64,000 nt of DNA from Deltaproteobacteria bacterium (GTDB taxonomy: Bacteria; Myxococcota; UBA727; VGSZ01), in contig JACOUT010000009.1 of the NCBI GenBank assembly GCA_016177705.1, positions 769,519 to 833,518 of the forward strand. Direction: 5' to 3'. The notes below the pieces were generated by a model. The model made no database searches and was not told the DNA's origin. It saw nothing but the letters and a program-made list of their open reading frames with translations. The position numbers were made by a program, and so were the translations under genes. Shown here piece by piece: positions 3,539 through 15,600 of this stretch (position 1 is its first letter; every line of letters starts with the position of its first letter).

Positions 3539-5062
3539 GTGGCGCGCCCCACGCCTCCGCGCGGCGTTCGACCCGGCACCGTCTTGGCCGGGCGCTTCTC
3601 CATCGTCGAGCCGATCGGCGCCGGCGGCATGGGCACGGTCTTTCGCGCCGTGCAGCTCGAGCTGCAGCGCGAGGTGGCCGTCAAGCTGATCGGCAGCGGG
3701 CGCGGCGCCACCACGGAGCAGGAGACCCGCTTCGAGCGCGAGGCCCGTCTGCTGGCGCGGCTGTCGCACCCGGCGATCGTCACCGTGCACGACTTTGACC
3801 GCACCGACGACGGGAGCTGGTTCTTGGTGCTCGAGCTGGTGCCCGGCGAGAGCGTGCAGCGCCGCATCGAGCGCGACGGCCGCCTGCCCTGGCAAGAGGC
3901 GCTCGCCGTGGGCGCGCGCATCGCGGAGGCGCTCGGCTACGCGCACGAACAGGGCGTGCTCCACCGCGACCTCAAGCCGGCCAACGTCATGCTCGCCACC
4001 GGCGCGTCGACCTCGGTCAAGCTGATCGACTTCGGCCTGGCGCGCCTGGCCGACGTCGCCGGCGGCGCGCCGCTCACCGAGTCGGCCTACGTGATGGGCA
4101 CGCCCGGCTACATCGCGCCTGAGTACGTGTGGAGCGGCACCATCGGGCCGCCCGCCGATCACTACGCGCTCGGCGTAGTGCTGTTCGAGATGCTCACGGG
4201 CGTGCACCCCTTCGCCGAGGCCGCGACCGATCGGATGCAGGCGGCGCGCGAGCTGCTCGCCGCGCGCGCACCGGAAGCGCCCTCCGAGCTGAAGAGCATC
4301 GTGCTCGCGTTGATCGAGCAGGATCCCGCTCGCCGGCCGGGCGCCCCGCGGCGGCTGCTCGGCGCGCTACAGGACACGCTGCTGCGCGGCGGCGCACCCA
4401 CGCCCATGACGCCGTCCCTGCCGCGCGCGGTGTCCGGCGTCGATCGCACCGGGCGGCCGATGGTGTCGGTGGCGGGCGGTCTGGTGCAGCTCGATCTCGG
4501 GCATGGCCGCGCGGTCGAGGTGCGCTTGCGGCCGTTCGCCATCGACAAGCACCTGGTCACCTGCGCCGACTGGCTCTCCTTCATGCGGGAGACCGGCGCC
4601 GCGGCGCCGGCGTCGTGGGACGGTCCGAAGCCGGGGCGCGCGCGCCTGCCGCTGCCGGTCGTCGACGTCTCGTTCGCCGACGCGAGCGCGTACGCCGCTT
4701 GGGCGGGTCGCCGTCTGCCCACCGAAGCAGAATGGGAGCTGGCGGCGCGCGGCCCCGAGCGTCGGCTCCATCCGTGGGGCGACACCTGGCAGAGCGGGCT
4801 GTCGCACCCGAGCCACGAGCTGCCGCTCGAGCGCCGCACACCCGGGCCCATCGGCCTGTACTCGCCGCAAGGCGACAGCCCGCTCGGCGTCCGCGACCTG
4901 CTGCAGATCTGGGAGTGGGTGGTCGCGCCCTACCAGCCGTCGGGGAACCTGGTGCGCGGTGGCCCCTGGCGCGACCGCAACGTGCCGCCGCTTCTGACCA
5001 ACCGTAGCTGGGAGGATCGTCCCGCGAAGGACGTCGGCTTTCGCTGCGCGCGCGACGGGTAG
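3539..5062 (+). CDS. Ser/Thr protein kinase fused to FGE-sulfatase-like domain
   Basis: A 507-residue fusion. Residues ~21-285 are a complete Hanks-type kinase: GAGGMG glycine loop, VAVKL lysine, HRDLKPANV catalytic loop, LIDFGLA magnesium motif and GTPGYIAPEY activation segment. From ~310 to the end is a formylglycine-generating-enzyme-like domain (IDKHLVTCADW, RLPTEAEWELAARG, VRGGPW, VGFRCARDG). The Cys that normally follows the GGSW motif in active FGE enzymes is absent (here GGPWRDRN), so sulfatase activation is unlikely and a binding or sensing role is a better inference. No transmembrane segment is evident. The GTG start is the last in-frame start before the kinase domain; no clear ribosome binding site is visible. 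Confidence 0.88.
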   Translation: MARPTPPRGVRPGTVLAGRFSIVEPIGAGGMGTVFRAVQLELQREVAVKLIGSGRGATTEQETRFEREARLLARLSHPAIVTVHDFDRTDDGSWFLVLELVPGESVQRRIERDGRLPWQEALAVGARIAEALGYAHEQGVLHRDLKPANVMLATGASTSVKLIDFGLARLADVAGGAPLTESAYVMGTPGYIAPEYVWSGTIGPPADHYALGVVLFEMLTGVHPFAEAATDRMQAARELLAARAPEAPSELKSIVLALIEQDPARRPGAPRRLLGALQDTLLRGGAPTPMTPSLPRAVSGVDRTGRPMVSVAGGLVQLDLGHGRAVEVRLRPFAIDKHLVTCADWLSFMRETGAAAPASWDGPKPGRARLPLPVVDVSFADASAYAAWAGRRLPTEAEWELAARGPERRLHPWGDTWQSGLSHPSHELPLERRTPGPIGLYSPQGDSPLGVRDLLQIWEWVVAPYQPSGNLVRGGPWRDRNVPPLLTNRSWEDRPAKDVGFRCARDG

Positions 5063-5071
5063 CGCGCGCCT

Positions 5072-6487
5072 TCAGCGCTTGCCTGGGCGCTCGATGCCGA
5101 ACGCGTCCATCTTGGCGACCAGCGTGTTGCGCGCCACGCCGAGCGCGCGCGACGCGTGCTGGAGGTTGCCGCGCGCCTCCGAGACCGCCGCGGCGACATC
5201 GTCACGGGTGAGCTGGCGCGGCTTCTTTTGCTCGAAGCTCGCCTCGCCGCGCACCGACGTGCGTGGGCGACCGAGCGCGCGCGCTTGTGCGGCGATGCGC
5301 TCACGCATCTCGTCGGCCTCGACCGTGTCACGGCCGTCCTCGAGCGCCTCGCGCGCCAACAGCCGCACCACGCCGCGGAGCTGTCGCAGCTCACCGGGCC
5401 ACTCTGCATCGACGCACGCGCCGAGCGCGCCCGCCGAGAATGACGCGGCAGCACCGTCCTCGCGGCGCAGCTCCTCGAGCAAGCCGCGCACCAACGCCGG
5501 GATGTCCTCCTTTCGCTCGGCGAGCGAGGGGATCTCGACGATGGCGCCGTCGGCGAGGCGGAACGCCAGGTCGTGACGCAGCGCCGTCTCGGCGAGCGGC
5601 TTCTTGGTGGCGGCGACCACGCGCACGTCGAGCAACCCGGGCGCGTCCGCCTGCGTGCCGCCGAGCGGCACCAGGTCGCCCGACTGCTCGAGCAAGGTCA
5701 AGAGGAAGCCCTGCGCCGGCGGGGCGAGCGAGTCGACCTCGTCGAGGAACAGCGTGCCGTGCTCGGCGGCGCGGAACGCGCCCGGCACGTCGCCAGTGGC
5801 GCCGGTGAAGGCCCCCTTCTTGTGCCCGAGCAACGTGCTTCGGAGCTGCGCCGGATCGTGCGGCAGCGCCGCGGCGTTGAGGGCCACGAACGCACCCGAC
5901 CGGCCGCTGTCGTCGTGGATGCGGCGCGCGGCCCAGGTCTTGCCCGTGCCGGAGGCGCCGAGCAGCAGCACCGGGCCGCGCCCGCGGCCGGCGCGCGCGA
6001 GCTCACGCGCGTAGCGATCGCCGCGCGCGCTGCCGCTCGCGTCGGGCAAGCTCGGCGTGGTCGCGGTCGCGGTCGCCTCCACCGCCGCGTGCGCGTCTCC
6101 GAGGAAAACCACGTCACCGACGCCGAGCACGAGCGGCTCGCCCGGCGCCAGCCGCCGGGCGGCGGCGAACAGGCGCGCGCGGCCCAGGTCGGAGTGCACG
6201 CCGCCGCCCTCCGCAACGTAGCTGCCGTTGGCAGAGCGCGCGTCGACCAGCACCCAGGCGCCCTCTTCCTCCTTCAGGTGCGCGTGGACGCGCGACACGC
6301 CGTCGTCGTCGAAGCACAGGTCGGCGCCGGCGCTGCGGCCGAGCGTGTACGCGACGCCGCTCGACAGGCGCAGCTCGCCGGCGGGACGTCCGCGTCGGTG
6401 CAGCACGAGCGCACCGGGCGCTAGCCGCGTCGACGGCTCGATCGGCTCGCCGGGGCGGCGCTTGCGGGTGGGACGGTCGCGCACCAC
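5072..6487 (-). CDS. FHA-domain sigma54-dependent activator
   Basis: About 471 residues. An N-terminal FHA domain (residues ~26-130) keeps the phosphothreonine-binding positions: TLGRS, VSRVHAH and SANGSY. The AAA+ domain has Walker A GASGTGKT (177-184), the sigma54-contacting GAFTGA loop (225-230) and Walker [11 protein letters not shown] Fis-type helix-turn-helix closes the protein ([20 protein letters not shown]). It should read a phosphorylated partner and open sigma54 promoters. A string of GTG codons near 6487 is the likeliest start; an extension upstream to 6556 encodes an uncharacteristic Cys-rich segment. It converges with the kinase-FGE gene (9-bp gap) and is divergent from the pseudokinase gene. 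Confidence 0.88.
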
Positions 6488-6506
6488 GGGCGCAAGGATA
6501 GCCGAC

Positions 6507-6519
6507 TGGCAATTTGCCA
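6507..6519. promoter_or_regulatory. Palindrome TGGCAA-T-TTGCCA, possible activator site
   Basis: A perfect inverted repeat of 6 bp arms around a single T lies in the divergent region, ~20 bp from the activator start and ~67 bp upstream of the -24/-12 element. Dyads in this place often serve as enhancer sites for sigma54 activators, here possibly for the adjacent FHA protein. Confidence 0.4.
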
Positions 6520-6573
6520 CGCAGCACGGCGACCGACCGAGGGCCGGGTGGCACACGGACGCGGCGGTCGTGG

Positions 6574-6589
6574 TGGCACGCGCGCTGCT
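6574..6589 (+). promoter_or_regulatory. Candidate sigma54 (-24/-12) promoter
   Basis: TGGCAC, five bases, then CTGCT: the invariant GG and GC are separated by the required 10 bases and only one core base differs from the TGGCAC-N5-TTGCA consensus. The predicted transcription start near 6600 would leave a 12-base leader containing the GGAGG ribosome binding site (6602-6606) before the ATG at 6612, so the geometry fits well. Confidence 0.55.
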
Positions 6590-6611
6590 TCATGGAGCCG
6601 TGGAGGTGCGC

Positions 6612-8093
6612 ATGTCCGACGTCGCCATCACGGTCCACTGGCAGTCCATTCACTTGGTTCAGGAGGCGCTCAAGGTCGTCGACCGCGCGCGCCTGCTCGA
6701 GCTACCGGACGCCTGCGTACCCGTTGGAACTGCCCCGGACGGCCTACCGTTGGTGGTGCGCGTCGACCGCTCGGCATCGATCATCGAGCCCGTGCTGCGC
6801 GCGGTGCATGCCGTCGAGATTGGCAACCTCTCCCCTGAGGCGAAGAAGCTCCTGCTCGAGTTGAACAAGCGCCTGCAGCACGAGCGGCGCGCGCTCGGCA
6901 TCGTCCCCAAGGGCCCGCAGAGCGACTCGCCCCACTACATCTCCATGCAGTCGGTGCCGGCGCTGTTCGGCGAGACGCTCTTGTGCCGGCTGCTCGGCGC
7001 GACGAGCCCGCTGCTGCTGCCGGAGGACCGCTTCAGCTTCGCGGGCAAGAGCGACGAGTTGGCGGCGAGGACCTCGTGCGGAGTGTTGATGCCGGTGGTG
7101 GAGCGGCTGCGGCTCGCCGACGACCTGCAAACGCGGCAGCACGTGGCGCTGCCGCTCGACGGTGGCGCGGCCCAGGTGGTGCGGCAGCGCGACGCCCTCG
7201 TGCTCGACGTGGGCGACGGGCGCCCGCTGGTCTTCGAGGATCTGCGACACCTGCCCTCGGCAATGTTCCACGCCTATCGGCGCGAGGGCGGCTGCAACCA
7301 GCTCATACACTTCCAGGGCAAGCTCGGTGACAACGAGGACTACCGCGCAGCGGTGCGGCGCGCGCATGCGGTCGGCTGGTCGGTGAGCCGCATGGACCTG
7401 TTGCACGCGGTCGCCGAGGTCGCGCGCGCGCTCTCCACCTTGCACGCCGAGGGATTGGTCCACGGCGACATCAAGCCGGCCAACATCCTGCTCACTGACG
7501 AGGGCGCGCTGCCGCACGACTCGCTCGACGTGAAGATCGGCACGATCAGCGCCGCCGGCACCAAGGGTTGGAACGCGCCGGAACAAGTGATCGCGCGCGA
7601 GGTCAGCCCGGCCACCGACGTGTTCTCGCTCGCGCAGCTCGTGGTGCAGATCCTCGAGGCGGCGGTGTTCGGCGACGAGCGCGCCTTTGTGGTGCCGGTG
7701 GGCGGCGGCCAGCGCATCAGGGAGCGCCTCCTGCCCGAGCCCGACGTCTACCTCGACCCCAACCTGATCACGTTCAGCGACGCCGCCGTGACCGCCTGGC
7801 GTGCGTTCTTGCGCCGCTGCCTCGCGCTCGACGCCGGCAAGCGTCTTCAGACCAGCGCCGCCTTCGCCGACGAGCTGTGCGACATCTGCGCGCGCCACCC
7901 CGTGCCCGGCCGCCGCGCCGTCTCCGGCCTGGCGGGTCGCCTGACGCGCCACGCCATCGGTGCTGGGCTCGGCGATCGCTTGCGCCGCCTCGCCGGGCGC
8001 GACAACGACGACGCCGTCGTGTGGGAGATGCACGACAGCTACAGCCACGTGCACCGAATGCCGTGGCGCATGGTCTTCGGGGTCGCCGCCTGA
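6612..8093 (+). CDS. Pseudokinase (protein-kinase-like, DFG lost)
   Basis: A 493-residue protein. The catalytic loop is recognisable as VHGDIKPANI near residue 283, and a GTKGWNAPEQ activation-segment end and ATDVFSLAQLV helix follow as in Hanks kinases. But the DFG motif is replaced (VKIGTISAAG), no glycine-rich loop is seen, and the first ~200 residues do not match a standard N-lobe. Magnesium-dependent catalysis is therefore doubtful; a scaffold or regulatory role is inferred. The ATG has GGAGG five bases upstream. The gene lies just downstream of a -24/-12 promoter candidate and opposite the FHA-sigma54 activator, which suggests it is that activator's target. Confidence 0.75.
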   Translation: MSDVAITVHWQSIHLVQEALKVVDRARLLELPDACVPVGTAPDGLPLVVRVDRSASIIEPVLRAVHAVEIGNLSPEAKKLLLELNKRLQHERRALGIVPKGPQSDSPHYISMQSVPALFGETLLCRLLGATSPLLLPEDRFSFAGKSDELAARTSCGVLMPVVERLRLADDLQTRQHVALPLDGGAAQVVRQRDALVLDVGDGRPLVFEDLRHLPSAMFHAYRREGGCNQLIHFQGKLGDNEDYRAAVRRAHAVGWSVSRMDLLHAVAEVARALSTLHAEGLVHGDIKPANILLTDEGALPHDSLDVKIGTISAAGTKGWNAPEQVIAREVSPATDVFSLAQLVVQILEAAVFGDERAFVVPVGGGQRIRERLLPEPDVYLDPNLITFSDAAVTAWRAFLRRCLALDAGKRLQTSAAFADELCDICARHPVPGRRAVSGLAGRLTRHAIGAGLGDRLRRLAGRDNDDAVVWEMHDSYSHVHRMPWRMVFGVAA

Positions 8094-8156
8094 TTCGCGT
8101 GAGGGCTTGCTCGCAGGGCGCATTCACGCGACCGTGCGGGCCAACCTGGAGGTCTT

Positions 8157-8738
8157 ATGCCCCGTCTCTCGTCGCTCGCACTCGCACTCGCCCCGCTCGC
8201 GCTCGCGCTCGTCATCCCGACAGGATGCAAGAAGGCGGTCGAGACGGCCGAGAGCGCGGCCATCGCCGCGGCCTCTGGCGGCAAGGCCTCCTTGACCGCA
8301 GACGGCAAGATCGAGGTCAAGACCGACGAGGGCACCGCCAAGATCGACCTGGCAGGAGACAAGGGCGTCGCCACCATCACCGGCACCAACGCCGACGGCA
8401 CCAAGTTCAACGCGGCGTTCGGTACCGCCGCCAAGGCGCCCGAGGGCTTCCCTTTGCCGATGATGGACGGCCTCAACGTCGTGCAGGGCGCGGTCTCCGA
8501 CAAGGGTGGCAAGAAGAGCTACGCGGTCATGGGGCAGATCGCCAAGACGGCCAAAGAGGTGGCGGACTTCTACGAGCCGGCGATGAAGAAGGCGGGCCTG
8601 ACCGTCACGCGCAGCGAGACCAACCTCGGCGGCCTGGTGATGCTCGCGCTCTCGGGCGAGGGCGGCGGCCACAAAATGGGCGTGGCGGCGCAAGAGGCCA
8701 AGGGCCAGACCACCGTGACCTTCGGCGGCGAGTGGTAA
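8157..8738 (+). CDS. Small lipoprotein of unknown function
   Basis: A 193-residue protein with a long hydrophobic signal peptide and a lipobox ending in Cys24 (IPTGC). The mature part is rich in Gly, Thr and Lys, with short beta-strand-like repeats (GKIEVKT, AKIDLAG, GVATITG) and then an alpha/beta region around residues 100-193. A GGAGG ribosome binding site sits just upstream of the ATG. It follows the pseudokinase gene by 63 bp and may share its transcript. No family was recognised. Confidence 0.8.
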   Translation: MPRLSSLALALAPLALALVIPTGCKKAVETAESAAIAAASGGKASLTADGKIEVKTDEGTAKIDLAGDKGVATITGTNADGTKFNAAFGTAAKAPEGFPLPMMDGLNVVQGAVSDKGGKKSYAVMGQIAKTAKEVADFYEPAMKKAGLTVTRSETNLGGLVMLALSGEGGGHKMGVAAQEAKGQTTVTFGGEW

Positions 8739-8768
8739 CGGCTTGAGGTGAGCCGATCGCGACGCCCG

Positions 8769-9497
8769 TCAACCGCCTCGGCGATCGATGGTGCCGAGCG
8801 TCCCCGACGGCGGCGCCGGGTCGCCGGAGGCTTGCAGCGCCACGATCGTGATGGTCGCGACCGCAGCGATCAACACGGCGCCGGCCCCGGCGCCACCCCA
8901 GATGGCCCACTGCAGGGCCGCGTCGCGTTCGGCGGCGTCGGCCTGCAGCTTTGCCTGTGCCTCGGTCGCGCGGCGCGACGACTCGGCGGCCCGCTGCCGA
9001 GCCGCGGCGACGCGCTCCTCCTCGAGGAGGCGCGCGATGGCCGCGTCGGCTTCCGCGGCGGCACGCTCCTGCACCGCGGCCTCGGCGGCCAGGCGGTCGG
9101 CCTCGAGCCTGGCGGCTTCGAGCTTCAGCTGCTCCGCCAGGCGCGTCTCGGCCTCGGCCAGGCGCCGCGCGGCGACGTCGCGGTTGGGGCTGTCGCCGGC
9201 CTCGGCCAGGAAGCGCTGATAGAAGAAGGTCGCTCGTTCGAAGCTGCCGAGCTGGAAGTGGCACTGCCCGATGTTGAACAGCAGCTCGGGCAGCGCCTTG
9301 TTGCGGTAGGCCTCGTCGTAGGCCGCGAGCGCCTCGTCGAAGGCGCCGCGCTTGAAGGCCTCGCTGCCGCGGGCGAAGGCGGCGCGCGCAGCGGCGACGT
9401 CCTCCACCGGGCCGGCGGCGTTCGCGTCCTCGGCACGCACGGAGCCGGCGATCAGCAGGGTCGCAAGCGCCGCGCACGCGGAGCGCCACGCCGTCAC
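8769..9497 (-). CDS. Secreted TPR protein with C-terminal membrane anchor
   Basis: About 242 residues. The GTG start gives a clear Sec signal peptide (cleavage near SVRA-ED). Residues ~45-115 carry tetratricopeptide-like helices (AFARGSEAFKRGAFDEALAA, LLFNIGQCHFQLGSFERA), then a long Ala/Glu/Arg-rich coiled coil, and finally one hydrophobic helix near residues 195-220 and a short tail. The pattern of TPR, coiled coil and one membrane helix is common in myxobacterial envelope proteins that accompany kinases. A start at 9539 is possible but has no signal peptide. The gene is convergent with the preceding lipoprotein and downstream of a kinase gene. Confidence 0.75.
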   Translation of the reverse strand: MTAWRSACAALATLLIAGSVRAEDANAAGPVEDVAAARAAFARGSEAFKRGAFDEALAAYDEAYRNKALPELLFNIGQCHFQLGSFERATFFYQRFLAEAGDSPNRDVAARRLAEAETRLAEQLKLEAARLEADRLAAEAAVQERAAAEADAAIARLLEEERVAAARQRAAESSRRATEAQAKLQADAAERDAALQWAIWGGAGAGAVLIAAVATITIVALQASGDPAPPSGTLGTIDRRGG

Positions 9498-9603: not shown

Positions 9604-11079
9604 CTAGCGGGCGAACGGGTCGAGGATCACGGTGTCATCGTGCTCCCGCGTGGCGCCGGGCGACCTGCCCGGTCGCTTGCCCGGCTGCTTCTCGACCGGC
9701 GTCGGCTCCTCCGGCACCGGAGCGGGCTCGGGGATGACCACGGCGATCGTGGCGGAGCTTGCCAGTGACACGCGCGACTCGACGGGCGGCCGCCCCGGCA
9801 GCGTGAACACGAAGGCCGCCTGCTCCTCGCTCCTCGGCAGCGACAGCGTAAACGGCGTCAAGCCGAGCGGCGTCGCGCCTCCCGCGCGCGTCACCGCTGC
9901 GGCCGCCGGGGTCGACTCGAAGCGCAGCGTCACCTCGGCGGGCAGAGCGACGTGCTGCGCCGGCGCAACCGCCACGTCGGTCTGCAGCAGAGTGACGCCG
10001 CCCACGACGGCGAGCACGCCGAGCGCGGCGGCGAGCAGGGCAGCGACCAGCGGACGCCGCGGCCCGCGCACAGGCGACGGAGCGGGCGCGGCCGCCGGCC
10101 CGACCGCGAGCGCGTGCAGCGACGACGCCATCGCGCCCGCGGTGGGGCGCGCCCCGGGTTCCTTGGCCAGGCAAGCGAGCACCAGGCGCTCGAGGTCGGG
10201 CGGCGGCGCCGGCACGCCGGCGCGCGCCATCGGCGGCGGCATCTCGAGCAGGTGCTTGATCACGAGGTCGCCGCGGCTCACGGCCGAGAAGGGGCGAGCC
10301 GCGGTGAGCATCTCGTAGAGCGTGACGCCGAGCGAGTAGATGTCGGAGGGTGCGTCGGCCACGCCCTTGGCGAGCTGCTCGGGGGACATATAGGGCGGCG
10401 TGCCGAGCACCGCGGCGTCCTCGACGGGTTGCGCGGGATCGCCCGCCACCGCCGGGCTCAACTTGGCGACACCGAAGTCGAGCAGCTTGACGAAGTCGCT
10501 GCGCTCGCCGCGCGTGGTCAGAAAGACGTTCTCCGGCTTGAGGTCGCGGTGGACCACGCCGATGGCATGGGTGGCCGCGAGCGCGCTCGCCACCTGCGCG
10601 CCGATGGCCGCGACCCGTTCGGGCGGGAGCGGCCCACGCGAGACGCAAGCCCTCACCGTCTCTCCCTGCAGCAGCTCCATCACGTAGCAGGCGACGCCTT
10701 CGGGCGGGTCGAGGAAGTCGGTGATCTCGATCAGGTTCTCGTGGTGGATCTGATTGACCGCGCGCGCCTCACCGAACAGGCGCTGCACCGCCTCCTTGTT
10801 GTTCGAGTACCGGCGGTTGAGCACCTTGAGCGCGACCGCGCGTCCGAGCTTGGTGTGCTCTGCGCGAAAGACCCGGCCCATGCCGCCCGTGCCGAGCAGC
10901 TCGATCAGGCGGTAGGAGCCGACGACGTCGCCGACGTTGACCGGCTCCGGCGCGCCCTCCGCGCTCTCCGGGCCGTTGCCCAGGGAGCCGCTGCCGGTGA
11001 CATCGTCCGCCACCGGATCGGTGGGGGCCGTCCGCGCCGCGACGCCTCCGGTGTCGGACTCGTCGGTCATCGCGACCAT
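9604..11079 (-). CDS. Transmembrane Ser/Thr protein kinase with PEGA-like domain
   Basis: About 491 residues. The kinase domain (residues ~50-320) has GTGGMG, VALKVL, HRDLKPENV, LLDFGVAK and GTPPYMSPEQ, so it should be active. A single membrane helix follows near 340-366, then a ~75-residue PEGA-like region (FESTPAAAAV, GLTPFTLSL) and a charged tail. Cytoplasmic kinase with an external PEGA domain is a typical myxobacterial receptor-like design. Several in-frame ATG codons (11103, 11079, 11070) are close together; 11079 has the best, though weak, purine-rich upstream sequence. It lies between the Cys-rich lipoprotein gene and the TPR gene, all on the minus strand. Confidence 0.88.
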   Translation of the reverse strand: MVAMTDESDTGGVAARTAPTDPVADDVTGSGSLGNGPESAEGAPEPVNVGDVVGSYRLIELLGTGGMGRVFRAEHTKLGRAVALKVLNRRYSNNKEAVQRLFGEARAVNQIHHENLIEITDFLDPPEGVACYVMELLQGETVRACVSRGPLPPERVAAIGAQVASALAATHAIGVVHRDLKPENVFLTTRGERSDFVKLLDFGVAKLSPAVAGDPAQPVEDAAVLGTPPYMSPEQLAKGVADAPSDIYSLGVTLYEMLTAARPFSAVSRGDLVIKHLLEMPPPMARAGVPAPPPDLERLVLACLAKEPGARPTAGAMASSLHALAVGPAAAPAPSPVRGPRRPLVAALLAAALGVLAVVGGVTLLQTDVAVAPAQHVALPAEVTLRFESTPAAAAVTRAGGATPLGLTPFTLSLPRSEEQAAFVFTLPGRPPVESRVSLASSATIAVVIPEPAPVPEEPTPVEKQPGKRPGRSPGATREHDDTVILDPFAR

Positions 11080-11162
11080 CGTTCCACAACGCGTGAGCGC
11101 CATGGGACGCTGAGACGCCCCACCGGCCAGAGCGGCGTCGTCACCGAGCTCGCCCGTCGACG

Positions 11163-14100
11163 TCACGGGCAGCTCGACGGCGCGCCGCCGTAGCTGCGCG
11201 TGCTGCCTGCCTCGCGGGCGCCCACGTCCGGCGACGGGCCGAAGAAGCGCGCTGCATCGGCGTCGACGTGGTCGAGGCCGACGTCGGCGCCCGCGTCGAC
11301 GAGCGACGAGCCCGAGGGGAGACACAGATCGGCGTCGAGCGCCGGGTCGATGGTCAACTCGCACAGCGGCCCGGCGCCCGAGCAGAGCGCCGCGCAGGAT
11401 CCGCCGGTGCAGACGATGCCGCCGAAGACGTCGTTGCCACCCGACGCCGGCGCGCAGGCGGCGCTGAGCGCGACCGCGGCGTCGAGCTGCCAGACCTCCC
11501 CGACCGCGGAGGTGCCGGCGATGTTGCCGCGCACACAGGCGTCGCTGAGGGTGCGCATCTCGACGGCGACGCCGTCACCTACCACCACGGTGTTGTGGTC
11601 GAGGCGGACGCCGTTCGCGGCCACCGCCTCTACGCCGACGGCGTAGTTGCCGCTGATGGCGTTCATGGCGAGGACGATGCCGGGGTGGGTGTTGGCGGCG
11701 AGCGCCTTGCCGTCGGGCCCCCCCGTGCCGGCGTGCGAGAAGAAGCACGCGCTCACCAGCGCGTCGGGCGCCTTGACGTCGACGAGCACGTCGGGGTCGC
11801 GGGCCACGTTGTCGAAGCGGCAGCCGGTCACCACGTTGCCGCTGCTGAAGCCACCGAGCCCCGGCTCGGAGATGCGGACGGCCCGTCTCACCTCATCGAA
11901 GGCGAGCCCGTCGAGCACGTTGCTGCCGCTCACGATCTGGAAGATCGGCAGGTCGTTACCCGTGGTCATCGCGACCGTGCCCGAGAGCGGCCGCAGCGTC
12001 ACGCCGTAGGGCTCGCCGCCAACACACGGCGAGCCGCCCGTCAGGCCGCACTCGTCGAGCACGATCGGGTCGCCGACGTTGTAGCTGCCGGGGGCGAGCG
12101 CGATCACCTCGTGACCGGCGCGGGCGTAGGTCTCGGTCAGCGCCAACTCCAGCGCAGCGACGGAGTCGATGGCGCCGCCCGTACAGCCGCCGAGATCCAA
12201 GGTGCAGGCCCCGGTGCACGCAAGGCCACTGCCGCCGCCGAGCAGGCGCCCCCGGCTCCAACAGGTCTCGCCGGCGAGGTTGACGCCGTCGCACTGCTCG
12301 CCGTCGGTGACGGCGCCGTCGCCGCATTGCCCAGCGACGCACACGCTTGGCTGGCCGCCGCACACGAAGCCCGGCTCGATCGCGCACGAGGCCGAGCAGC
12401 CGTCGCCACCGAGCACGCCGCCATCGTCACAACCCTCCGTGCCCTCGAGCGCGCCGTTGCCGCAGCGCTGGCAGACGCTCGGCACGCCGAGGCAGCCCCA
12501 GCCAGGCTCGATGGTACACGTCGCGGAGCAGCCGTCGCCGCTCGTGGTGTCGCCGTCGTCGCACGGCTCGCCGGTTACGATCACGCCGTCCCCGCACACG
12601 TTGCTGCACGACGACGGCGCGCCGGTGCAGGTGAAGCCCGCCTCGCGCACACAAGTGCTCGAGCAGCCGTCCAGGTTCGCGAGGTTGTTGTCGTCGCATT
12701 GCTCGCCGCCGAGCACGAAGCCGTCGCCGCACAGGGGCGTGCAGCTCGATGGTGCACCAACACAGCTCCAGCCGTCCTCGAGCGCGCAGCTCGGGCTACA
12801 GCCGTCACCGGCAGCGGCGCCGCCGTCGTCGCACGGCTCGCCGCCCACGCGCATCCCGTCACCGCATACCGGCGTGCAGGTCGAGGTGGGCGCGCCGGTA
12901 CACGCATGGCCCGCCTCGGTGCGGCAGCTCGCCGAGCAGCCGTCACCGGCGCTCGCGTTGCCGTCGTCGCACTGCTCACCCGCTGCGCCGTTCACGACGG
13001 CGTCACCGCAACCGCCGGTGCACACCGAGGGCTCGCCCGCGCACGACCAGCCGGCCTCGGTCTGGCACGTCGTCGAGCACCCGTCGCCACCGGCGACGCC
13101 GCCGTCGTCGCAGCTTTCCCCGCCGGTGATCCTGCCGTCGCCGCAGCGCACGCACACGCTCGGCACGCCGGTGCAGACGTAGCCGGGCTCGATGACGCAG
13201 GCGGCCGAGCAGCCGTCGCCCGGGGCTCGGTTGGCGTCGTCGCAGCCTTCGGCCCCGACGAGCGCGCCGTCGCCGCACACCGGCGCACAGGGCTGCCCGG
13301 CCGCGCAGACGTAGCCCGGCTCGAGCACGCAGCTGCCGCTGCAGCCATCCGACGAGGCGGTGTTGCCGTCGTCGCACGACTCGGGGCCGGCGACGATGGC
13401 GTCGCCACAGGTGGTGGTGCACACGCTCGGCGCGCCGGCGCAGGCGAAGCCGGGCTCCCGCAGGCACAGCGACGAGCAGCCGTCGCCGCCGTCGACGTTG
13501 CGGTCGTCACACTGCTCGCCGGCCACGATCAGGCCATCGCCGCAGTTGGCGAGGCAGACGGTGGGGTCGAGCCCGGTGCAGGAGAAGCCGATCTCGACCG
13601 TGCAGAACTCCGAGCAGCCGTCGCCATTGTCCAGGTCGCCGTCGTCGCACTGCTCGGCGTCGCGCGTCAGGCCGTCGCCGCAGGGGTAGGTGCAGTAGGA
13701 GGGCTCGCCTTCGCAGGCCCACTGCGGGTCGATGCGGCAGCTCGCGTCGCAGCCGTCCACGGCGGCGTCGAGGTCGCCGTCATCGCACTGCTCGGTGCCG
13801 CCGACGCGTCCGTCGCCGCACACCGAGCAACCCGACGGCTCGCCGTCGCAGGTGTAGCCCGGTTCGATGGTACACAAGCCGTCGCAACCATCGCCGGTCG
13901 CGAGGCCGCCATCGTCGCACTGCTCGCCGGGGCGCACCCAGCCATCGCCGCACACCGGTTCGCACGTCGAGGGGAAGCCCGTGCAGTCCCAGCCGGTCTC
14001 GACGGCACAGAAGCGCGCGCAGCCGTCGCCGTCGTCCTGGTCGCCGTCGTCGCAGGCCTCACCGGCGCCCTGGTCGCCGTCGCCGCAGGTCTCGGCACAG

Positions 14101-15428
14101 CTCGACGGCTGGCCCCAGCACACCCAGCCGGCCTCGCCCTGGCAGTCGCCGTTGCAGCCGTCGCCGGGCGCGATGTTGGCGTCGTCGCAGGTCTCGCCGA
14201 GCTCGAAGACGCCGTTGCCGCAGCGCGCGCACCTGCTCGGGCTGTCCGAGCAATGCCAACCGTTCTCGACGAAGCAGGTGCGCGTACAGCCGTCGCCACC
14301 CACGTCGTTGCCGTCATCACACGCCTCGCCGGGCAGCACCAGCGCGTCGCCGCAGACGGCCCGGCACAGTGACGGTGCGCCGACGCAGGCGTAGCCCTCT
14401 TCGAGGCGGCAGTAGGCGTCGCAGCCGTCGGCAGCGACGATGTTGAGGTCGTCACATTGCTCGGCCAGCCGCAGAAAGCCGTCGCCGCACACGGCGCGAC
14501 ACACCGAGGGCTCGCCGAAGCACACCGCGCCGGGCTCGAGCGCGCAGATGGAGGAGCAGCCGTCGGCGGGCGCCGCGTTGCCGTCGTCGCAGCTCTCGAC
14601 GCCGCGGATCAGGCCGTCGCCACACACAGGCGCGCAGCTCGACGGCTCGCCCTCGCAGACAAAGCCCACCTCGAGCGCGCAGTCGGCCGCGCAGCCGTCG
14701 CCGTCGAGGGCGCCGCCGTCGTCGCACGCCTCGTCGCCGGCCGGCACGCCGTCGCCGCAGCTGGTGGTGCACGACGACGGGCTACCAGCACACGCGAAGC
14801 CGTGATCGACCACGCAGTCCCGACACCCGTCGACGAGCTCGGCGTCGTCGCCGGCGCCGCCATCGTCGCATTGCTCGATCGGCGTGACGACGACGCCGTC
14901 GCCGCAGAAGGCGCACACGCTCGGCTCTCCCTGACAGCGCGCGCCCTCCTCGAGGGCGCAGGCGCCGTCGCAGCCGTCCCCGGCGGTCGCGTTGCCATCG
15001 TCGCACGCCTCGAGCTCGCTCTCGACGGCGCCGTCGCCGCACAACACCGGGTCGCCGATCGGCACCTCGACCGGCACCACGCTGTCCGCGACCACGCGCA
15101 CGGTCTCGCTGCCGGTGCCGACCAGCTCGCCGCCGAACAGGGCGTCGACGCGCACGCGCAGCACGGCGTCGCCGAGGCTTCGGTCGACCAGCAGCACGAC
15201 GCTCTCTCCGGTCGGCTGCAGCGGGCGAGGCTCGAGCGGCGCCAGGCCGGGCTCGATCACCACCACGCCGTCGACGAGGCCGCTGATGGAGAGCTGGTCG
15301 ACCGCGAGCGCGGGGTCAAAGGTCGGCAGCACCTCGACGCCGGTGAGCCCGGACTGCACTGGGCCGGCGCAGGTGCAGGAGGTGACCGTGCACCATACGA
15401 GCAGCAGCGCCAGTCCAGGCTTGGTCAT
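11163..15428 (-). CDS. Giant Cys-rich DUF4215-repeat / beta-helix lipoprotein
   Basis: A 1421-residue secreted protein. Residues 1-18 form a signal peptide with lipobox VTSC; ~20-128 is a beta-rich lead domain. From Cys130 to ~1085 come 20 DUF4215-type (myxobacterial Cys-rich) repeats of about 45 residues, each CGDG...E.CDDGN...GDGC...C..E.G..C.G.PS.C, plus a degenerate 21st. Each repeat holds about six Cys and an acidic loop likely to bind calcium. The rest looks like a right-handed beta-helix with regular short strands and Asn/Asp turns. It is probably a surface adhesin or matrix protein; that role is inferred. A GTG six bases upstream is an alternative start. Confidence 0.9.
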   Translation of the reverse strand: MTKPGLALLLVWCTVTSCTCAGPVQSGLTGVEVLPTFDPALAVDQLSISGLVDGVVVIEPGLAPLEPRPLQPTGESVVLLVDRSLGDAVLRVRVDALFGGELVGTGSETVRVVADSVVPVEVPIGDPVLCGDGAVESELEACDDGNATAGDGCDGACALEEGARCQGEPSVCAFCGDGVVVTPIEQCDDGGAGDDAELVDGCRDCVVDHGFACAGSPSSCTTSCGDGVPAGDEACDDGGALDGDGCAADCALEVGFVCEGEPSSCAPVCGDGLIRGVESCDDGNAAPADGCSSICALEPGAVCFGEPSVCRAVCGDGFLRLAEQCDDLNIVAADGCDAYCRLEEGYACVGAPSLCRAVCGDALVLPGEACDDGNDVGGDGCTRTCFVENGWHCSDSPSRCARCGNGVFELGETCDDANIAPGDGCNGDCQGEAGWVCWGQPSSCAETCGDGDQGAGEACDDGDQDDGDGCARFCAVETGWDCTGFPSTCEPVCGDGWVRPGEQCDDGGLATGDGCDGLCTIEPGYTCDGEPSGCSVCGDGRVGGTEQCDDGDLDAAVDGCDASCRIDPQWACEGEPSYCTYPCGDGLTRDAEQCDDGDLDNGDGCSEFCTVEIGFSCTGLDPTVCLANCGDGLIVAGEQCDDRNVDGGDGCSSLCLREPGFACAGAPSVCTTTCGDAIVAGPESCDDGNTASSDGCSGSCVLEPGYVCAAGQPCAPVCGDGALVGAEGCDDANRAPGDGCSAACVIEPGYVCTGVPSVCVRCGDGRITGGESCDDGGVAGGDGCSTTCQTEAGWSCAGEPSVCTGGCGDAVVNGAAGEQCDDGNASAGDGCSASCRTEAGHACTGAPTSTCTPVCGDGMRVGGEPCDDGGAAAGDGCSPSCALEDGWSCVGAPSSCTPLCGDGFVLGGEQCDDNNLANLDGCSSTCVREAGFTCTGAPSSCSNVCGDGVIVTGEPCDDGDTTSGDGCSATCTIEPGWGCLGVPSVCQRCGNGALEGTEGCDDGGVLGGDGCSASCAIEPGFVCGGQPSVCVAGQCGDGAVTDGEQCDGVNLAGETCWSRGRLLGGGSGLACTGACTLDLGGCTGGAIDSVAALELALTETYARAGHEVIALAPGSYNVGDPIVLDECGLTGGSPCVGGEPYGVTLRPLSGTVAMTTGNDLPIFQIVSGSNVLDGLAFDEVRRAVRISEPGLGGFSSGNVVTGCRFDNVARDPDVLVDVKAPDALVSACFFSHAGTGGPDGKALAANTHPGIVLAMNAISGNYAVGVEAVAANGVRLDHNTVVVGDGVAVEMRTLSDACVRGNIAGTSAVGEVWQLDAAVALSAACAPASGGNDVFGGIVCTGGSCAALCSGAGPLCELTIDPALDADLCLPSGSSLVDAGADVGLDHVDADAARFFGPSPDVGAREAGSTRSYGGAPSSCP
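12175..15041 (-). repeat. Tandem array of ~135-bp DUF4215 repeats
   Basis: Twenty full units and one diverged unit encode ~45-residue Cys-rich repeats inside the lipoprotein gene. The units share the protein pattern CGDG...CDDG...DGC...C but differ in DNA sequence, so the array appears old rather than recently amplified. Confidence 0.9.
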
Positions 15429-15600
15429 GCTCACGAGCTACGCACCACTCGCCTTCCTGCGCTCATCGCCGGCAGCCGCAGGATCACCTCCGGCCGAGGG
15501 AGCCGCCAAGGGCGGCGTTCCGGGTGCATCGGTCCGTGCGGTCCACCCCGCGCAATGGCGCCCCATGTAGGCAAGTGTCACGCGCGAGGTAGCCTGCGTC

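Follow-up and report, generated by a model that had tools for sequence, protein, structure and literature searches.

The window, that is, the whole stretch of 64,000 nucleotides analysed here, belongs to contig C17 of the 6.9-Mb draft genome of an uncultured bacterium and contains three genes of relevance (Table 1), which encode a protein joining a Ser/Thr kinase to an FGE-sulfatase domain (kinase-FGE), a σ54 activator and a degenerate kinase. The kinase-FGE and activator genes are arranged tail to tail with a gap of 9 bp, and the activator and degenerate-kinase genes are arranged head to head with 124 bp between them; both the open reading frames and the Pfam matches agree with an earlier note on this DNA, in which the latter two genes were described as a divergent pair.

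Table 1 Features of the three-gene locus, in window coordinates.
Feature	Position	Strand	Evidence
Ser/Thr kinase fused to FGE-sulfatase (SUMF1-like) domain	3539..5062	+	Pfam; ortholog 63% identical
FHA-containing σ54 enhancer-binding protein	5072..6487	−	ORF, Pfam, ortholog alignment
Fis-type helix-turn-helix, P0001 residues 457-486	5099..5188	−	Pfam; ortholog alignment
AAA+ σ54-interaction and lid domains, P0001 residues 183-426	5279..6010	−	Pfam
GAFTGA loop, P0001 residues 248-253	5798..5815	−	Sequence motif
FHA domain, P0001 residues 70-115	6212..6349	−	Pfam; R74, S88, R89, H91, N110
TATCCT, probable −10 element of the activator gene	6495..6500	−	Predicted from position, 7 nt before start codon
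Palindrome TGGCAATTTGCCA, candidate activator-binding site, centre −87	6507..6519	.	Scan, ortholog comparison
−24/−12 σ54 promoter TGGCACG-CGCG-CTGCT	6574..6589	+	Pattern scan, shuffles, ortholog
Predicted 12-nt leader, Shine-Dalgarno GGAGG at 6602-6606	6600..6611	+	Predicted from promoter geometry
Degenerate kinase (predicted pseudokinase), 493 aa	6612..8093	+	ORF, Pfam, profile comparison, ortholog
Catalytic loop HGDIKPAN (HRD -> HGD)	7461..7484	+	Ortholog alignment
Asp306, aligned with DFG Asp; motif DVK, ortholog DIR	7527..7529	+	Two alignments

The activator (P0001) matched the Pfam families FHA (43.1 bits), Sigma54_activat (118.8 bits) and AAA_lid_14 (38.4 bits), and no receiver domain was reported by Pfam. 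All of the FHA residues G73-R74, S88-R89-x-H91 and N110-G111 are present, also in the ortholog from a related genome (see below), and Walker A, GAFTGA and Walker B (LFLDEVD) are intact and similarly kept in the ortholog; the phospho-binding FHA domain and the GAFTGA-bearing AAA+ domain that had been noticed earlier are thus both confirmed. The match to HTH_8 was borderline (21.8 bits, E = 1.6 × 10−4, just below the curated cut-off of 22); the segment is conserved in the ortholog, and the recognition-helix region VARNTLxAKM is common to the two proteins. The ortholog carries a Thr/Ala-rich linker of (TTTA)n amino-acid repeats, about 40 residues long, between the AAA+ domain and the helix-turn-helix (L018:6400-6510), which is absent from the window protein.

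The start of the activator gene is most likely GTG 6487, rather than the start of the open reading frame at 6556, because homology begins at V24/V25, the position of the ATG of the ortholog. A start at GTG 6556 would bring the palindrome described below into the coding region, and the ortholog start argues against it. A TAnnnT hexamer is located exactly 7 nt before the activator start at both loci (TATCCT in the window and TACGCT in the ortholog), suggestive of an activator transcript that is probably leaderless and initiated from a housekeeping promoter.

The kinase-FGE protein (P0003; Pkinase 172.7 bits, FGE-sulfatase 114.6 bits) has intact kinase motifs (VAVK49, HRD144, DFG and APE). Near the C-terminus, at what we take, from human FGE, to be the place of the catalytic Cys pair, this pair is absent from both P0003 and its ortholog, and P0003 shows PWRDRNVPPLLTNRSWED there. 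Because the Cys pair is missing, the FGE-like domain (window 4480-5062) is probably a non-catalytic binding domain.

In the degenerate kinase (P0002), the kinase C-lobe was assigned to residues 258-419 by Pfam (PF00069, 50.6 bits) and to residues 242-438 by profile comparison. HGD286, K288, N291 and APE are retained, F and G of DFG are lost, and the activation segment is short. D306 occupies the DFG-Asp position in two alignments, although the motif reads DVK/DIR, and the 15 residues from N291 to D306 match the spacing from N149 to D164 in the neighbouring kinase-FGE; the metal Asp is probably retained. The N-lobe (Gly-rich loop and VAIK Lys) gave no profile match, and no lysine is conserved between the orthologs within residues 1-250, position 50 being Arg in the window protein and Lys in the ortholog. 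AlphaFold2 models of P0002 reached a pLDDT of 30 (2 sequences) and 44 (7 kinases, with confidence confined to portions of the C-lobe).

A scan of GTDB contigs yielded one relative, VGSZ01000037.1 (L018, labelled Deltaproteobacteria bacterium), in which the three genes occur in identical order and orientation with 60-63% identity (63% for the kinase-FGE ortholog). The open reading frames further left of the three-gene block differ between the two loci, the contig of the relative stops inside the pseudokinase gene, and its intergenic region, 224 bp in length, aligns poorly with that of the window. No further pseudokinase orthologs were detected in the genome sets at order, class or phylum level, so that conservation, with two comparable loci (the window and L018), rests on a single comparison. 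That comparison bears out the gene identities, and the module, the promoter box and the symmetric site described below are conserved across both loci. Among the 195 genomes of the phylum, 2 have the pseudokinase, and the kinase-FGE ortholog was found in the same 2 (of 193 genomes, with the best few candidates per genome scored), adjacent to the pseudokinase in both; G002 and G003, from the relative's own genus, are without either gene. The nearest relatives of the activator elsewhere are paralogs with much weaker scores. Because the pseudokinase and the kinase-FGE share the same 2 genomes, the three genes appear to behave as a unit with patchy presence, and the combination of these three parts appears to be rare. 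For all three genes dN/dS is about 0.5, and they look to be under purifying selection. A single rpoN gene was found in each of five genomes tested, those of the window and of the relative included.

Between the divergent genes, TGGCACGCGCGCTGCT at 6574-6589 is the sole match with zero mismatches to TGGCACRNNNNYTGCW in the 64-kb window. With GG at 6575-6576 and GC at 6587-6588, transcription is predicted to start at 6600, leaving the leader with GGAGG given in Table 1, as previously proposed for this element. The box of the relative, TGGCACGGCGCCTGCC, precedes the start codon by 41 nt (38 nt in the window), and its predicted start at L018:7986 leaves a leader of 15 nt, again with GGAGG. Owing to unequal spacer lengths, a MAFFT DNA alignment of the intergenic regions misplaced the boxes, and their positions served for the comparison instead. 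When the intergenic sequences were dinucleotide-shuffled, TGGCACR-N4-CTGC appeared in the last 60 nt in 6 of 20,000 cases for the window and in 1 of 20,000 for the relative, that is, a joint frequency near 10−8 if the two are independent.

The palindrome that had been pointed out upstream of this box was recovered as a 13-bp sequence that is unique in the 6.9-Mb genome, and a search for a wider regulon by the exact TGGCAATTTGCCA across the genome gave no further copy. Such 13-mers, with 5-bp arms and a 3-base loop, are common by chance (20% of shuffles); hence, the palindrome draws its weight only from comparison. The symmetric counterpart in the relative, CGTCATTTTGACG (L018:7861-7873), shares with it the core CA-wTT-TG, the outer positions having changed symmetrically, and is centred at −119 from the predicted start, a difference of 32 bp, or about three helical turns, from the window site. 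A resemblance this strong was observed in 704 of 20,000 shuffles (3.5%) without weighting and in 116 of 20,000 (0.6%) with weighting by composition. A pattern derived a posteriori from the two compared sites, GNCAWTTTGNC, has 6 copies in the window genome (G000) and 4 in that of the relative (G001); in each genome, the copy in the activator/pseudokinase intergenic region is the sole one with a σ54-like box within 250 bp. The palindrome is a probable activator site.

The recurrence of the genes, along with the promoter site, in a second species makes the three genes look like one small switch, and we consider it fairly probable, judging from sequence, that kinase-FGE, the FHA activator and the pseudokinase form a single transcription switch controlled by phosphothreonine. 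A low constitutive level of the activator would be supplied from the housekeeping, probably leaderless, promoter. The soluble kinase-FGE would autophosphorylate or phosphorylate a partner, in response to a signal perhaps sensed by the FGE-like domain, and the FHA domain of the activator would read the phosphothreonine and thereby license assembly of the AAA+ ring. Bound to the palindrome, some 90-120 bp upstream, the activator would then open the σ54 polymerase at the −24/−12 promoter. The output would be the degenerate kinase, probably a non-catalytic binding partner (a scaffold or a feedback element) in the same pathway.

Several alternatives bear on the regulatory region. The promoter match alone proves little because such strings are no commoner in the genome than the reversed pattern: a genome-wide motif search revealed no enrichment (17 matches vs. 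28 for the reversed-pattern control), and the box might then be a chance GC-rich string, with the pseudokinase transcribed from another promoter. However, the promoter gains weight from the matching box in a similar place in the relative, with the joint shuffle frequency given above; in addition, a σ54 activator gene adjoins, and a crude scan of 6400-8800 found no σ70-like promoter. A chance match is thus very improbable, and the position and conservation of the box, as far as the two sequences can tell, are not chance-like. Instead of acting as an enhancer for the pseudokinase gene, the palindrome could be an operator through which the activator represses its own gene, given that the window copy, 20-32 nt upstream of the probable activator start, overlaps the promoter region of that gene; the symmetric site of the ortholog, however, lies 85-97 nt upstream of the activator start, outside the core promoter, and both sites fall in the usual enhancer range of a σ54 start, which makes an operator role unlikely. 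In this regulatory reading, the promoter is well supported and the upstream site moderately so. Similarly, the earlier proposal that the activator switches on the pseudokinase gene is well supported by the divergent arrangement, the box, the symmetric site and the single rpoN, although activation itself is a prediction.

Regarding the proteins, the nature of P0002 and the identity of the phosphorylating kinase both admit other readings. P0002 could be an active atypical kinase whose N-lobe has merely diverged, considering that it keeps HxD286, K288 and N291 along with D306, placed at the DFG Asp by spacing and by two alignments, that a β-hairpin (35-51) and a helix (75-94) are weakly predicted in both low-confidence models, and that the ortholog has Lys at position 50. 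Against this count the lack of a profile match for the N-lobe and, over residues 1-250, of any lysine common to both orthologs, the loss of F and G from DFG and the short activation segment; we regard catalytic activity as rather doubtful and 'predicted pseudokinase' as a fair label, the term used in the earlier note being favoured by the lack of a recognisable N-lobe and weakened by the probable metal Asp. As for the phosphorylator, previously suggested to be kinase-FGE or another kinase, we infer from linkage (the conserved block, the intact motifs and the occurrence in the same two genomes) that the neighbouring kinase-FGE controls the activator, phosphorylation being the predicted part of that claim. 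The promoter and activator could function as described, with kinase-FGE merely linked and the activity set by another kinase or by the level of the activator: the genome encodes many kinase paralogs and about 8 activators with an FHA-like domain, and FHA domains read phosphothreonine on many partners. But the phylum genomes with a kinase-FGE ortholog are precisely the two with a pseudokinase ortholog, the genes being adjacent in both, and in two genomes the gene of the nearest paralogous FHA activator likewise follows a kinase gene directly; control by something other than kinase-FGE is a possibility to which we give less than even weight.

The genome has about 30 σ54 activators in all, the FHA-like ones included; therefore, another of them could act at the pseudokinase promoter. 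The linkage between a kinase and an FHA activator recurs, because the paralog just mentioned lies behind a kinase gene both in the window genome (L085/L089, G000:C11) and in G015 (L090, G015:C27), in two families. These pairs resemble the window locus in that a kinase gene adjoins the gene of a related FHA σ54 activator; they differ in being same-strand tandems and in their kinase, which lacks an FGE domain and extends at the C-terminus into a long HEAT-like region. Nor was a degenerate kinase found next to this operon. In another FHA activator paralog, from the genome of the relative (L025:1417-3000), GAFTGA is replaced by GAYTSA; therefore, this protein may depart from the usual mode of σ54 contact.

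FHA enhancer-binding proteins of Myxococcus xanthus were reportedly described by Jelsbak, Givskov and Kaiser in 2005, with the proposal that they connect Ser/Thr kinases to σ54 promoters. The window activator resembles these proteins in carrying an FHA domain on a σ54 activator and in the proposed path from a Ser/Thr kinase to a σ54 promoter, but comes from another lineage, and its gene shares a conserved block of three with a single kinase gene and a divergently oriented target gene for a degenerate kinase. To our knowledge, the activation of FHA-type σ54 activators, and the kinase responsible, are poorly defined because both kinds of protein are plentiful and their genes mostly lie dispersed. 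The activator type is thus already known from Myxococcus, and the new part would be the orphan degenerate-kinase target and the closed three-gene module. The paper of Jelsbak and colleagues is cited in PMC4320627. In Mycobacterium tuberculosis, phosphorylation by PknH enhances promoter binding by EmbR (PMC6213207). Like EmbR-PknH, the window locus pairs a transcription factor bearing an FHA domain with a Ser/Thr kinase, kinase control being predicted for the window activator; unlike the latter, EmbR is an OmpR-like regulator without a σ54 AAA+ domain, and its targets are arabinosyltransferase genes rather than a gene for a kinase-like protein (PMC6213207).

With one kinase, one FHA activator, one promoter and one output, a minimal block shared by two species would allow a direct test of the pathway by reconstitution, and the module would be a case of a σ54-controlled pseudokinase. 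More tentatively, the block might be a co-inherited, self-contained Ser/Thr switch whose single dedicated output, the lineage-specific pseudokinase, feeds back on the kinase or the activator; if so, it would correspond, on the Ser/Thr side, to a two-component system that has a pseudokinase modulator built in.

A small lipoprotein-like gene (8157-8738) lies 63 bp after the pseudokinase gene; no terminator was found between the two, and the lipoprotein-like gene could be part of the same σ54 transcript. Elsewhere in the window, a second Ser/Thr kinase gene (9604-11364, minus strand) adjoins the gene (11163-15434) of a 1423-residue protein with tandem Cys-rich repeats of the CGDGxxxxxExCDDGN type.
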